From Thermococcus sp. M39 (GTDB lineage: Archaea > Methanobacteriota_B > Thermococci > Thermococcales > Thermococcaceae): a DNA stretch of 53,158 bases. The position numbers were made by a program, and so were the translations under genes. The notes below the pieces were generated by a model, which saw only the letters and a list, made by a program, of their open reading frames with translations, made no database searches and was not told the DNA's origin. The stretch covers positions 1-53,158 of the forward strand of contig NZ_SNUG01000009.1 in NCBI RefSeq assembly GCF_012027325.1, read 5' to 3'. Below, in pieces: positions 10,975 through 32,728 of this stretch (positions are counted from its first letter, which is position 1; each line of letters opens with the position of its first letter).

Positions 10975-12117
10975 TCAAACCTCCCATTCGTGAATCAGCT
11001 CTCCCTCTGCAAATACATGCGTTGGATAGTTCTCCATGTGGAACGGATCACCGCTCCAAACGACGAGCGAAGCCCATTTGCCCTTCTCAATGCTTCCTAA
11101 AATGTCATTTACTCCAAGAATCTTGGCGTTGTTGTATGTTATGATCTTTATTGCCTCTTCCTTGCTCATTCCTAAGCGTATGAAGTGCCTAAGCTGGAGA
11201 TAGAGGTTTGCTTGGAGCGTTATCGGGTGGTCGCTCATAAGTCCAAAGAGGGGCTTCACTTCAATGAGGTATTTAGCGTTCTTCCAGTCTTCATGCTTCA
11301 GCTCAACCTTGTATGGCAAAGCATCAAATGGACCATAAACTACTGGAACTCCCTCTTTCTTAATCTTCTCAAATGTCTCTTTGCTGTGAACGTCTGCAGC
11401 ATGCTCGATGGTTATTTTAAGCCCGAACTTGCGCTTTATCATGAGCAACGCTGCGATATCATCCTCTTTATGCACGTGGACTCTCAGCGCCTCTTCCCCT
11501 TTTAAAACTGGAATTAATGCTTCGACAGTTGGCTCAATTTCCTCTGGCTCTTTCTTACCTTTTTCAAGCAAGGTAATTGTCTTCTGTGTCTTTATAAGCC
11601 AATTCAAGAGAATTCCAATTGCTCCCATCCTTGTGCTTGGCCTTGTTCCTTTCCACTCTTTAGTTGACCTTGGATTGTATCCAAAAGCTGCTTTAACGCC
11701 GACATACTTCATGAAGGCATCTTCAATGTCCCTTCCATAGTTTTTAATTAGAACAGCCCTTCCTCCGATAATATTTCCGCTTCCTGGTAGAACTGAAGAA
11801 TACAGAACCCCAAACTCAATTGAGTGTTTGAAAGCTTTGTCATCCATGTAGATTGAATACAAAGCGTCAACTAAAGGCAGAACTGAATCCATTTGTTCAT
11901 TTGCTTCTCCCTCTTGATATGGTTCACCATAGCGCTCCATTCCAATGTGTGAGTGCCCGTCAATGAATGCCGGCGTCACAACTCCTTCCGCTATTATTTC
12001 AGCATCTTTGGGCTTCTCTTTTGTGATTTTCTTAATTTCTTTGTCAAAAACAATGTAGACGTTCTTTTTGACATTGCCTAATCCATCGTACAAAAGAGTT
12101 GCCTTCACTGCTTTCAT
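10975..12117 (-). CDS. Amidohydrolase, imidazolonepropionase-like
   Basis: This 380-residue metal-dependent hydrolase has FIDGHSHIGMERYG, giving the HxH metal site after the N-terminal beta domain. LRVHVHKEDD, TIEHAADVH and LMSDHP then supply the remaining barrel ligands. GSIEKGKWASLVVWSGDP is the typical C-terminal strand region. It probably cleaves a C-N bond in a cyclic amide or amide substrate in the cytoplasm, and the substrate is unknown. The ATG at 12117 is chosen because GGTGGT lies 5 bases upstream. A TATA-like CATTTAAGCG (about 12147-12156) precedes it. Just upstream of that TATA is the AATT array at 12169-12206, a possible control site. Confidence 0.88.
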   Translation of the reverse strand: MKAVKATLLYDGLGNVKKNVYIVFDKEIKKITKEKPKDAEIIAEGVVTPAFIDGHSHIGMERYGEPYQEGEANEQMDSVLPLVDALYSIYMDDKAFKHSIEFGVLYSSVLPGSGNIIGGRAVLIKNYGRDIEDAFMKYVGVKAAFGYNPRSTKEWKGTRPSTRMGAIGILLNWLIKTQKTITLLEKGKKEPEEIEPTVEALIPVLKGEEALRVHVHKEDDIAALLMIKRKFGLKITIEHAADVHSKETFEKIKKEGVPVVYGPFDALPYKVELKHEDWKNAKYLIEVKPLFGLMSDHPITLQANLYLQLRHFIRLGMSKEEAIKIITYNNAKILGVNDILGSIEKGKWASLVVWSGDPFHMENYPTHVFAEGELIHEWEV

Positions 12118-12168
12118 AGCGACCACCAAATAAATTCCATAAGAGCGCTTAAATGCTTGTCGATGACT

Positions 12169-12206
12169 TAATTACAGAATTAAACAATTGTCGAATTCTG
12201 CAATTA
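12169..12206. promoter_or_regulatory. 38-bp array with AATT at 8-bp spacing (site 1)
   Basis: Five AATT tetranucleotides start at 12170, 12178, 12186, 12194 and 12202, exactly 8 bp apart. The outer parts also form an imperfect inverted repeat (ATTACAGAATT at 12171-12181 against AATTCTGCAAT at 12194-12204). The array lies about 13 bp upstream of the predicted TATA box of the amidohydrolase gene, a position used by archaeal activators. A second 38-bp array with the same phasing is at 31541-31578. Binding by a protein is inference. Confidence 0.5.
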
Positions 12207-12366: not shown

Positions 12367-13245
12367 TTAGAAGTACATGCCCATCTCCTCTGCAATTTTC
12401 CTAAGTCTCTCAATCCTCTTCTGTGTCGGTGGGTGTGTTGAGAATAACTCTGCAAAGTCCACTCCTCTGAACGGGTTTACGATGAACATGTGGGCTGTTG
12501 CTGGATTGCCCTCTTTTAAAGGTCTTCTCGAGACGTAATACTCAATCTTCTCTAGTGCTCTCGCTAATGCCCATGGTTTACCGCTTATCTTTGCTCCAGT
12601 TTCATCTGCTAGATATTCCCTTGCTCTGCTTATTGCCATCTGAATCATCATTGCGGCTATTGGGGCAAGAATTATGAGGAGTACAGCACCTAAAACGCTT
12701 CCAGCATCTCTGTCTCTGTCCCTTCCTCCAAATCCTCCAAGCCAGAACATCCAGCTAGCCCATCTAGCAACCATGATGATTGCCCCAGCCAAAACTGCCG
12801 CCAGAGTTTGAATAAGAATGTCTCTGTTCTTTATGTGGCTTATTTCGTGGGCTAATACCCCTTCAAGCTCATCTCTGTCCAAGATTCTAAGCAAGCCTTG
12901 GGTTACTGCAACAACTGCGTGCTTTGGATCTCTTCCCGTTGCAAACGCATTTGGCACATCGGTCGGGACTATGGCTATCTTTGGAGTTGGAATCCCAGCT
13001 TCCCTTGCAAGTCCCTCAACTATGCGGTAAAGCTCTGGGGCTTCCATTTCATCCACTATTCTAGCTCTGTACCAAGTAAGGACAATTTTATCACTGTACC
13101 AGTAGCTGAAGAAGTTCATGACCATTGCGAAAATGAATGCAAAGATGAGCCCTGTTTCATTGCCAAGCACATAACCGAGGGCCATAAGCAGTCCAGTGAG
13201 GAACGCCATCAACATGCCGGTTCTCAACCATAAGCCAAGCCCCAT
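12367..13245 (-). CDS. htpX: HtpX-type membrane zinc metalloprotease
   Basis: This 292-residue M48-family protease homologue is expected to cut damaged or misfolded membrane proteins. Two hydrophobic segments at about 10-48 are followed by the zinc site HEISH (133-137), two more membrane segments (about 145-195) and [12 protein letters not shown], which gives the third metal ligand. The start is the ATG at 13245; the site GGAGGTGAG overlaps the end of the upstream kinase gene, and only one base lies between that stop and this ATG. The two genes are therefore translationally linked. A perfect inverted repeat follows the stop. Confidence 0.92.
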
Positions 13246-13246
13246 T

Positions 13247-13789
13247 TTACTCACCTCCTAAATTTAAGTAAGGCACTATTTCATCATAAACTTGAGTCCA
13301 ATCTACAATTCCAATCCTCTTTTTAATGCCCTTATTCAAAAGCTCTAGAATTTCTCCAACAACCTGCTCTGGCGTTTTTCCTGTGGTGTCAACTTCAATG
13401 ATATTTTCATGCTCGTCAATAGCTTCAACTAGGCAGACATCAACTAATTCAGCCTCAACGTTCTCGCTTATCTTTTCTCTGCTGTAGCCCCTTTTCTTCA
13501 ATCTTTCACCAATGATTTTTGGGTGTAGGCGGAGGATAATGACTTGGTCAGCTGGCATGAGATGACTTAGGTGTCCATCAAGAACAACGTTCTTTCCTTT
13601 GAGTTCTTTTTCAATGAAATATGCCAGCTCGTCAATTTCAACTTCAAGTTCGTCTCCTTTAATCTCGCCAATTCCATGCTCAATTGCGAACTTCTTGATA
13701 TCAACGTACTTGTATCCTAGCTTTTCAGCCAAAAGCTTCGCAACTGTCGTTTTTCCAACTCCTGGAGTTCCGCTCACTGCAATTATCAT
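13247..13789 (-). CDS. Putative adenylate kinase, Fap7/AK6 (hCINAP) family
   Basis: This 180-residue P-loop NMP kinase-like protein has GTPGVGKTT (7-15), [12 protein letters not shown] for the Walker B region and [16 protein letters not shown] in the lid. This is the archaeal/eukaryotic AK6 (Fap7) family. In eukaryotes and archaea these proteins are linked to small ribosomal subunit maturation through Rps14/uS11, and they also have adenylate kinase or ATPase activity. The ATG at 13789 follows GGTGAGAAA. It forms an operon with htpX. TCTTTAAAAAGCC (about 13818-13830) may be the TATA box. A ribosome-assembly role is inferred from the family. Confidence 0.85.
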
Positions 13790-30596: not shown

Positions 30597-31234
30597 ACTT
30601 TCACCAGCCTGAACCTCAGCCACCAATATCTTTCACTCTCCTCAACTTCCGCTGGCTTTAGCTCAAAGCTTTTCTCAAATAGCGGACATTTCAAAACCAC
30701 CGTGTGGAACTCTGCAAACTCTCCAACCGAATCAACATTGGGATTTGCCTTCAAAAACTGCTCCAAATCTCTAATTGAGCGAAAGGTGTAGCCGAGCCAC
30801 TCTTTGGAAAGCTTTTCCTTGTTCACGGCAATTATTGAATACTCGAAGCCAGCGTTTATTATCTCCTTCGCAAGCTCAAGCGTATCTCTGCCCCATAGCG
30901 GCTCTAAAGCTTTTGTTCCGCTCTTTTCAGCGAGCCACTCAACCCACTTTAGGTGGTCTTCAAGTAGGACATCTCCAGCGATTATGTAATCAACATCAAG
31001 GGATGCTATGAACTCAGCTAGGGCTTCACTTCCTTTAGTCATATCAAAGATCAAGAGCTCCTTATTCATTGCATCTGCAAGCTTTTTCAGCTCGCTTAGA
31101 TTTTCATAGTGAGGTGAAGCTCCAATGGTGGTTTTTAAGACCAAGAGATATGGGACTTTGATCCCTTGTTTTTCAGCTAAGTATGTTGCATAAAGCCCAT
31201 CTTTGCCTCCTGAAAAGAATGCCACACCCCTCAA
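30593..31234 (-). CDS. DUF71/COG2102 PP-loop ATPase (Dph6-like), B12-linked
   Basis: This 213-residue PP-loop enzyme has VAFFSGGKDGLYATYLA (ATP pyrophosphatase loop) at the N-terminus and VGEFAEFHTVVLKCPLF near the end, matching the GE-GEFHT region of the family. Dph6 members amidate diphthine on elongation factor 2. Comparative genomics has linked another subgroup to B12 salvage. The coupling here (TTGA overlap with the zinc ribbon gene, ATGA overlap with cobZ) places this copy with B12. A TTG start with GGAGGGA 6 bases upstream gives the N-terminus. The reaction may be an ATP-driven amidation of a corrinoid side chain; this is inference. Confidence 0.82.
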   Translation of the reverse strand: MRGVAFFSGGKDGLYATYLAEKQGIKVPYLLVLKTTIGASPHYENLSELKKLADAMNKELLIFDMTKGSEALAEFIASLDVDYIIAGDVLLEDHLKWVEWLAEKSGTKALEPLWGRDTLELAKEIINAGFEYSIIAVNKEKLSKEWLGYTFRSIRDLEQFLKANPNVDSVGEFAEFHTVVLKCPLFEKSFELKPAEVEESERYWWLRFRLVKV

Positions 31235-31479
31235 ATTTGTCCCTCCATTTTAGCTTGCTCATATTCCTCCCTTATCTTTTGAAGCTCTGCCTCATCAACG
31301 TATGGTATTATTGCTCCACAATCAATGCAAAGCCATGGATAGGCTCTGATGGCTCCACTAAAAGCTGCTTTCAAGCCTTTTTTCCAGGGAGCTCTCCAGA
31401 AATAGACTGCATGACCTTCCAGATTGCTTTTTGCTCTTATCATAGTTCCTCCACAGAAGGGACATTTTCTCGTTTCCAC
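31231..31479 (-). CDS. Small zinc-ribbon protein, first gene of the DUF71-cobZ operon
   Basis: This 82-residue protein has two Cys pairs, CPFCGG near residue 6 and CIDCG near 51, forming a probable zinc ribbon, then a charged helix (EAELQKIREEYEQAKME). Between the pairs is FWRAPWKKGLKAAFSGAIRAYPWL, an aromatic, basic stretch. The GTG at 31479 is preferred because GGGTGG lies 5 bases upstream. The stop overlaps the TTG start of the DUF71 gene. The function is unknown; similar small ribbons act as subunits or nucleic-acid-binding modules. ATAAAACATCC (about 31510-31520) may be the TATA box, with the AATT array 21 bases farther upstream. Confidence 0.78.
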   Translation of the reverse strand: METRKCPFCGGTMIRAKSNLEGHAVYFWRAPWKKGLKAAFSGAIRAYPWLCIDCGAIIPYVDEAELQKIREEYEQAKMEGQI

Positions 31480-31540
31480 TAAAACCACCCAAAAATTACA
31501 GCAGCTTTGGATGTTTTATCCTTTGCTGTCCTTGATTATG

Positions 31541-31578
31541 TAATTACTGAATTATTTAATTAAGTAATTCGTTAATTA
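31541..31578. promoter_or_regulatory. 38-bp array with AATT at 8-bp spacing (site 2)
   Basis: Five AATT units start at 31542, 31550, 31558, 31566 and 31574, exactly 8 bp apart. A degenerate sixth (AATA) is at 31582. The ends also form an inverted repeat: ATTATGTAATTA at 31535-31546 pairs with TAATTACATAAT at 31573-31584. The array covers the last codons of the radical SAM gene and lies about 21 bp upstream of the predicted TATA box of the zinc-ribbon/DUF71/cobZ operon. Site 1 at 12169-12206 has the same length and phasing, with 27 of 38 positions identical. It may bind an activator; the hairpin reading (3' end of the radical SAM mRNA) is the alternative. Confidence 0.5.
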
Positions 31579-32728
31579 CATAATACCCCTCTCTATATTT
31601 CAAGGCTGGAACAAGCTTTTCAATCAATTCAGGCTTCTTTAAAATACTCTTAAGTCTCTTTTCATGAGCTTTAAAGCTCCTTGAAAGCCAGGAAGGATAT
31701 AACTTCAATCGCTCACCACACAAAAGTCCTTCTCTCTCGCATCTTTCCCATAACTCCTCAGCTCTTGCCTTTCCTTTCTCATAAGCTTCCAGATATAAAT
31801 CCCATAGCGTCGGCCTCCTTGTCCACTCAACTTCTAAAAAGCCCATCCCACAGCAGTCAATGGTTTTAGGCTCGTGAATATTGAAGAGACCTTCTTTGCA
31901 CGTTGCAAATGCTAAACCCCTCCTTTTGGATTCCTTTGCAAATAATTCTGCAGTTTTAAGTTTGTACTCAAGAGGAACTTGAATAAGGGGTGCTTCCTCG
32001 CTTGACGTCCTTGGCAGATACGACTCCCATTCTTTGCTGTAAACTTCGCTATAGCTGGAAAAGAGTCTTTTATAGAACTCAAAATTTTCTCTTTCAACTC
32101 TGAGAAACTCGATTATGACCATTCTAGCACCAGCCCAAGCAATTTCATCCAGGAAGTTTTCTACATCCCTATCGCTCAATCCGGGAATTAATGGCTGAAT
32201 CCTCACTACTGTTGGAATTCCAACTTCACTCGCTTTTTCCACCAGCTTTAATCTTTCTTCAATTGGACTCGCCAAAGGTTCAAGGATTTTGACTTCCTTA
32301 GAATCTTTCTCTGCATTTATGCTGACTTGAAGAACCAACAAACCTTCAGATGCCAGGTCTTCAAGGACTTTGAAGTGCTTTTCTGATGGGTAGAGCTTTG
32401 TATTCACAATCACTGGTACTTTGAGCTTGTACGCCAGCTTAAGTGCTTTGAGTGTTATTTTAGCTGGAGGCTGGAATGGATCGCTTAAAGCCGAGAATCT
32501 AACCGGAGTTACTGGAATGTTCTTTTCCACGAGCTTTCCTAAGGCTTTGATTAATCTAAAAACATCAAAAATAGGCTTAAGACTTCCATGGGGACCTCGA
32601 TACCATCTTGCATAGCAGTAAGCACATCCAAGTGAGCAAGTTGTGAAGACTTCTCCTCTAATTATGCTGTGACATAGACCACTCATGTGACTGCTTGTGC
32701 CGATTGTAAAGTATTCCAGCTTGACCAT
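31556..32728 (-). CDS. Radical SAM protein, SplB-like (COG1533 type)
   Basis: This 390-residue radical SAM enzyme has CSLGCAYCYA near residue 31, a CX3CX2C motif for the [4Fe-4S]-AdoMet centre. The layout GEVFTTCSLGCAYCYARWYRG followed by RFSALSDPFQPP and VIVNTKLYPSE fits the spore-photoproduct-lyase-like (COG1533) family. More Cys residues near the C-terminus (FATCKEG, TIDCCGMGF) may bind a second cluster. The ATG at 32728 has no ribosome site and lies about 27 bases from a minus-strand TATA (GAATATAAATC, 32751-32761). It is divergent from a uracil-DNA glycosylase. The substrate is unknown; a DNA-repair role is inferred from family and neighbour only. Confidence 0.82.
   Translation of the reverse strand: MVKLEYFTIGTSSHMSGLCHSIIRGEVFTTCSLGCAYCYARWYRGPHGSLKPIFDVFRLIKALGKLVEKNIPVTPVRFSALSDPFQPPAKITLKALKLAYKLKVPVIVNTKLYPSEKHFKVLEDLASEGLLVLQVSINAEKDSKEVKILEPLASPIEERLKLVEKASEVGIPTVVRIQPLIPGLSDRDVENFLDEIAWAGARMVIIEFLRVERENFEFYKRLFSSYSEVYSKEWESYLPRTSSEEAPLIQVPLEYKLKTAELFAKESKRRGLAFATCKEGLFNIHEPKTIDCCGMGFLEVEWTRRPTLWDLYLEAYEKGKARAEELWERCEREGLLCGERLKLYPSWLSRSFKAHEKRLKSILKKPELIEKLVPALKYREGYYVINELLN

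Follow-up and report, generated by a model that had tools for sequence, protein, structure and literature searches.

Tandem self-complementary units at a period of exactly 8 bp are known from the met boxes of MetJ, which are bound cooperatively by ribbon-helix-helix dimers; MetJ is a transcription repressor, and its AGACGTCT boxes lie at promoters. ParB/parS partition combines a few dispersed specific sites near the origin with a ParA-type ATPase. In E. coli, the terminus region carries multiple specific matS sites, single short palindromes in 23 copies that are restricted to this region and bound by a small dimeric protein tied to division (MatP-ZapB; PMC5441646). Saccharolobus and Sulfolobus encode the overlapping pair segA-segB, whose sites are scattered on the chromosome, many of them intragenic (PMC12284271, PMC5120986); Saccharolobus sites also lie upstream of segA, and Sulfolobales SegB recognizes a 13 bp motif (TCTAGA-S-TCTAGA) whose sites are concentrated in the vicinity of segAB and within the A compartment (PMC12284271). 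A 2025 paper treats the SegB of Thermococcus as orthologous to the ribbon-helix-helix protein SegB of Saccharolobus, but could detect no clear motif for it in Thermococcus sibiricus (PMC12284271). GC skew has been stated not to allow a precise prediction of the Thermococcales terminus (PMC2958812).

Here we analyze arrays of AATT units at an 8-bp period that resemble each of these systems in part. They share with met boxes the tandem arrangement of self-complementary units at the same period, but they are positional and often intragenic rather than tied to promoters. Like matS, they are multiple sites restricted to the terminus region, and the presumed binder is encoded beside a division gene, segAB adjoining ftsZ; unlike matS, they are tandem arrays present in roughly one to nine copies per genome, and the two have no sequence relation, any resemblance being presumably functional only. 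As in Saccharolobus and Sulfolobus, Thermococcus genomes carry an overlapping segA-segB pair and scattered, often intragenic sites, and in the clade designated g5 sites lie upstream of segA, but the AATT unit differs from the published motif, which is that of Sulfolobales, and the Thermococcus arrays lie opposite the origin. A few dispersed sites and a ParA-type ATPase are likewise found in ParB/parS, whereas parS lies near the origin and SegB is not a ParB.

Two AATT arrays in the window

The window is the whole 53,158-nucleotide stretch of DNA analyzed here, from Thermococcus sp. M39. The features relevant to its two arrays are as follows.

31534..31585, no strand: array 2, GATT-N4-AATT-N4-AATT-N4-AATT-N4-AATT-N4-AATT-N4-AATA, 8-bp period, five exact and two one-mismatch units; ortholog at G088:C1:919864
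31542..31577, no strand: core of array 2, five exact AATT units
12170..12205, no strand: array 1, twin of array 2, five exact AATT units; orthologs at G088:C1:900018 and in L041, L048, L053 and L059
31556..32731, minus strand: radical-SAM protein gene, its stop and 3' end within array 2
31231..31488, minus strand: small zinc-ribbon-like protein gene, downstream of array 2 on the minus strand, weak matches only
10975..12129, minus strand: amidohydrolase-family gene, one flank of array 1
12367..13254, minus strand: HtpX-type M48 peptidase gene, other flank of array 1

A sequence-only reading of the window had described array 2 as five AATT units exactly 8 bp apart with flanks forming an inverted repeat and a second such site elsewhere, and the letters bear this out. 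The units start at 31542, 31550, 31558, 31566 and 31574, the 12-bp inverted repeat (31535-31546 with 31573-31584) is exact, and site 1 has the same phasing, with AATT at 12170, 12178, 12186, 12194 and 12202; the 38-bp strings of both sites agree at 27 positions, 20 of which are AATT letters (counted by eye). Outer one-mismatch units, GATT at 31534 and AATA at 31582, extend array 2 to a total span of about 31534-31585, which covers the last codons and the stop of the radical-SAM gene. The window contains six matches to the four-unit pattern with at most one mismatch, whereas dinucleotide shuffles predict 0.01.

The inverted repeat of array 2 follows largely automatically from self-complementary AATT units at constant spacing. 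Over 63 arrays, complementarity of the spacers about the dyad averaged 1.11 of 4 positions, compared with 1.34 after permutation, and this lack of excess indicates that the array is made of tandem units rather than being a designed palindrome. The same result bears on the possibility that the arrays act in RNA, as hairpins or 3' terminators, for which one could cite the strong predicted RNA folding of the window arrays (z of -7.9 for the plus strand of array 2) and the position of many arrays about 7 bp after a stop codon. Any array of self-complementary AATT units is expected to fold, however, and the spacers add no dyad complementarity beyond the permuted value; since arrays also occur in mid-gene, lack a terminal U-run and cluster at the terminus, we reject this explanation as extremely improbable. 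The earlier remark that an 8-bp period departs from the helical turn is correct, and an intrinsic bend was also discarded, as AATT units repeated every 8 bp are out of phase with the helix and no summed curvature is expected.

A family of arrays opposite the replication origin

The two sites of the window are members of a genome-wide family. In the M39 genome, six loci hold an exact four-unit array, and two others hold an array with one mismatch. Scanning other genomes, which the sequence-only reading had proposed as a check, recovered an exact four-unit array in 46 of 94 Thermococcaceae genomes (about 85 matches), far above chance; the reversed-word control returned no match in the same 94 genomes, and the same words at period 10 gave two sites in Thermococcaceae. 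On the chromosome of G088, a complete relative of the same genus that was assembled from stretches, a score of 18/20 or more is reached by nine arrays at period 8 and by none at periods 5-7 or 9-14. The unit of the family is [CGT]AATT[ACG], with TAATTA preferred, and T follows AATT at 1% of array positions compared with 31% genome-wide. An origin by chance or AT composition might be suspected in an AT-rich genome (60% AT in G088), but controls with reversed words or other periods give no or almost no matches in these genomes, arrays are present also at a GC3 of 0.71, and the window itself exceeds its shuffles; we regard this explanation as refuted. Some 750 bp from one array (C2:38507 in G000), an open frame at L002 2250-2483 (G000:C2, about 39.3 kb) translates to FNSLRVLLK repeats and looks like a read-through CRISPR array.

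What the arrays have in common is their position opposite the replication origin. The M39 genome is a 54-contig draft, and the near-terminus placement of its arrays rests on orthology with G088, array 2 corresponding to 919864 and array 1 to 900018. With cdc6 as a proxy for the origin, and the terminus placed from cdc6 and GC skew, all nine G088 arrays fall between -234 and +180 kb of the cdc6 antipode, where cumulative GC skew peaks. A set of 28 complete genomes holds 85 arrays, of which 72 lie within a quarter arc from the antipode, as do 32 of the 34 exact ones; the per-genome median distance is below 0.25 in 25 of the 28. The associated P of about 1e-30 is nominal, preceding any correction for shared ancestry among sites that are not phylogenetically independent, yet most of the arrays examined in genera g2, g3 and g4 adjoin genes other than the array neighbors of M39 and still sit in the same part of the chromosome. 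By genus, the near-terminus counts in the 28-genome tally are 20 of 20 (g1), 19 of 22 (g3), 33 of 38 (g4) and 0 of 5 (g2). Single AATT words are evenly spread along the chromosome, and AATT pairs at period 10 show no enrichment near the terminus.

Off-terminus exceptions comprise G002, G015 and two arrays of G007 (1.82 and 1.97 Mb). The latter (G007:C1:1823036 and 1969595), one of them exact, lie near the origin; a rearrangement of the G007 chromosome is possible. The terminus half of G088 (C1:649856-650137) and a small second contig of G087 (C2:6835-7116) each encode a second, divergent Cdc6 (about 60 bits), probably as part of a mobile element. A polar fork trap of the Tus/Ter type was set aside as unlikely, self-complementary arrays having no polarity, and the best match in G088 to a dif query sequence has 7 mismatches.

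Selection on the arrays and their relation to promoters

The arrays are under selection at the DNA level inside genes. In genomes with a GC3 of 0.71, leucine is encoded by TTA in 3% of cases and asparagine by AAT in 13%, yet the array in mid-gatE is written GAA TTA CCT AAT TAT GGA ATT ACA. The probability of four AATT units given the protein is below 5e-5 in each gatE case, a figure that is biased when taken alone, the sites having been ascertained by their arrays; this bias is countered by the reversed control, which gave zero matches, and by the presence of such sites in several species. The flanks of M39 and G088 are too similar for a footprint to be read by eye, so substitutions were counted instead: at seven orthologous sites, changes affect 2 of 120 unit positions, 11 of 92 spacer positions and 71 of 811 flank positions (P=0.003). 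Conservation at orthologous loci, whose absence the sequence-only reading had listed among its refuting conditions, extends further for array 1, which is kept in the gap between the amidohydrolase and HtpX genes in G088 and also in L041, L048, L053 and L059, four genomes that belong to another genus.

The sequence-only reading had taken the two sites for a shared protein-binding element next to promoters. Its first half stands, the arrays greatly exceeding chance and persisting at orthologous loci, while the promoter or operator role is left unsupported, many arrays being intragenic. If the arrays were transcriptional operators, a regulator would bind upstream of promoters and control a regulon including the two operons of the window. 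TATA-like boxes about 20 bp downstream of both window arrays (by eye), the location of all identifiable intergenic sites in tandem gaps, and the retention of site 1 upstream of the amidohydrolase gene agree with this. Against it, 16 of the 38 arrays examined lie inside genes, and intergenic arrays keep no fixed distance to the downstream start, which ranges from -9 to 290 bp, so that the placement at promoters of a functional regulon seen with MetJ is not reproduced. Neighboring genes also have no evident common function, and terminus clustering would be left unexplained. Given the intragenic sites and variable geometry, we reject the operator explanation as very unlikely.

The segAB locus and a proposed terminus domain

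Searching for ParA-type ATPases led to a cluster, in M39 and its relatives, of a CdrS-like gene, ftsZ, segA and segB, the last two overlapping. The order of the genes for the CdrS-like ribbon-helix-helix protein, FtsZ, SegA and SegB is conserved (L075 942-3531, L076 2-2587, L077 2-2581) and links a gene for division with the two for segregation. Of the 81 genomes outside g5, 79 encode Thermococcus-type SegB; the two that miss it, G089 (75% complete) and G035, have no exact arrays. G035 (1.52 Mb, 99% complete) is a reduced genome of the family with neither SegB nor arrays, a natural case of loss. In g5, SegB is absent or divergent. None of the ten near-complete genomes without Thermococcus-type SegB has an array (Fisher P=0.001), a presence/absence argument that rests largely on g5 together with G035, and a set of 21 genomes from the other families of the class likewise showed no array. 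Two loci from g5 genomes without SegB (L073 and L074) encode a ParA-type ATPase whose AAA_31 score is higher still and which has no adjoining SegB-like gene, possibly an alternative partition ATPase of genomes that lack SegB.

Arrays of 8-bp period lie upstream of segA in the five g5 genomes with divergent segAB, one ending shortly before the segA start codon. In the four g5 genomes with the whole segA upstream region available, this region contains two or three arrays, against 0.04 in shuffles (P<0.001), and other periods give at most one match there. Thermococcus segAB loci, unlike those of g5 and Saccharolobus, have no array.

A KTLYIS stretch is nearly invariant across all SegBs and is presumed to form the DNA-contacting strand of a putative ribbon-helix-helix fold. 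SegB has no Pfam match and matches the ribbon-helix-helix protein 2kel weakly (E 0.77); phmmer and profile searches of the PDB found no SegB structure, and the SegB profile did not match CdrS/NikR-like ribbon-helix-helix sequences, the alignments being too shallow. Structure models, full-length and trimmed, are of low to moderate confidence; the trimmed model has an extended strand followed by two helices, without a fold match in the PDB, and the sequence pattern fits ribbon-helix-helix.

On this evidence, drawn from sequence comparison, we consider it probable that the arrays are sequence-specific, cooperative binding sites of a small dimeric protein, most likely SegB, that mark the terminus region. 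We infer that SegB is the binder, with one dimer per unit and an organizing or segregating function. Each 8-bp unit would accept one dimer, neighboring dimers would touch as in MetJ arrays, and three to seven of them would coat 25-55 bp, forming short protein-coated stretches at a few places opposite the origin. Together with the ParA-like ATPase SegA, these coated sites would serve to organize the terminus domain or to anchor it, and to keep its segregation in step with division, a link suggested by SegA and the neighboring ftsZ. The arrays would then work like matS/MatP of E. coli or like a dispersed parS-type centromere.

A different protein, another ribbon-helix-helix or nucleoid protein, might instead bind the terminus-marking arrays, with SegB merely co-distributed. 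Our attribution to SegB is inferential, Thermococcus segAB loci have no arrays, and further ribbon-helix-helix-like proteins exist, such as the CdrS-like protein encoded beside ftsZ. Nonetheless, every g5 genome with SegB has arrays directly upstream of segA, and arrays are missing where Thermococcus-type SegB is missing, neither of which is expected of an unrelated binder, and we deem this alternative rather unlikely. Retaining SegB as the binder, we marginally favor a scenario in which Thermococcus has a dedicated terminus domain of SegB-coated 8-bp AATT arrays, while in a Pyrococcus-like sister genus the same type of site stayed by segAB as a classical centromere.

The open-access literature searched yielded no archaeal terminus-domain element and no known SegB site for Thermococcus, PMC12284271 having found none. 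The arrays mark the Thermococcales terminus directly from sequence. If the scenario favored above is true, the domain that they mark would correspond in archaea to the Ter macrodomain, having arisen out of a partition system and being tied to division through the ftsZ-segA-segB cluster. With the arrays, the question of how euryarchaeal chromosomes are organized and segregated comes down to a few short sites that can be deleted, and the group concerned includes the genetically tractable Thermococcus kodakarensis.
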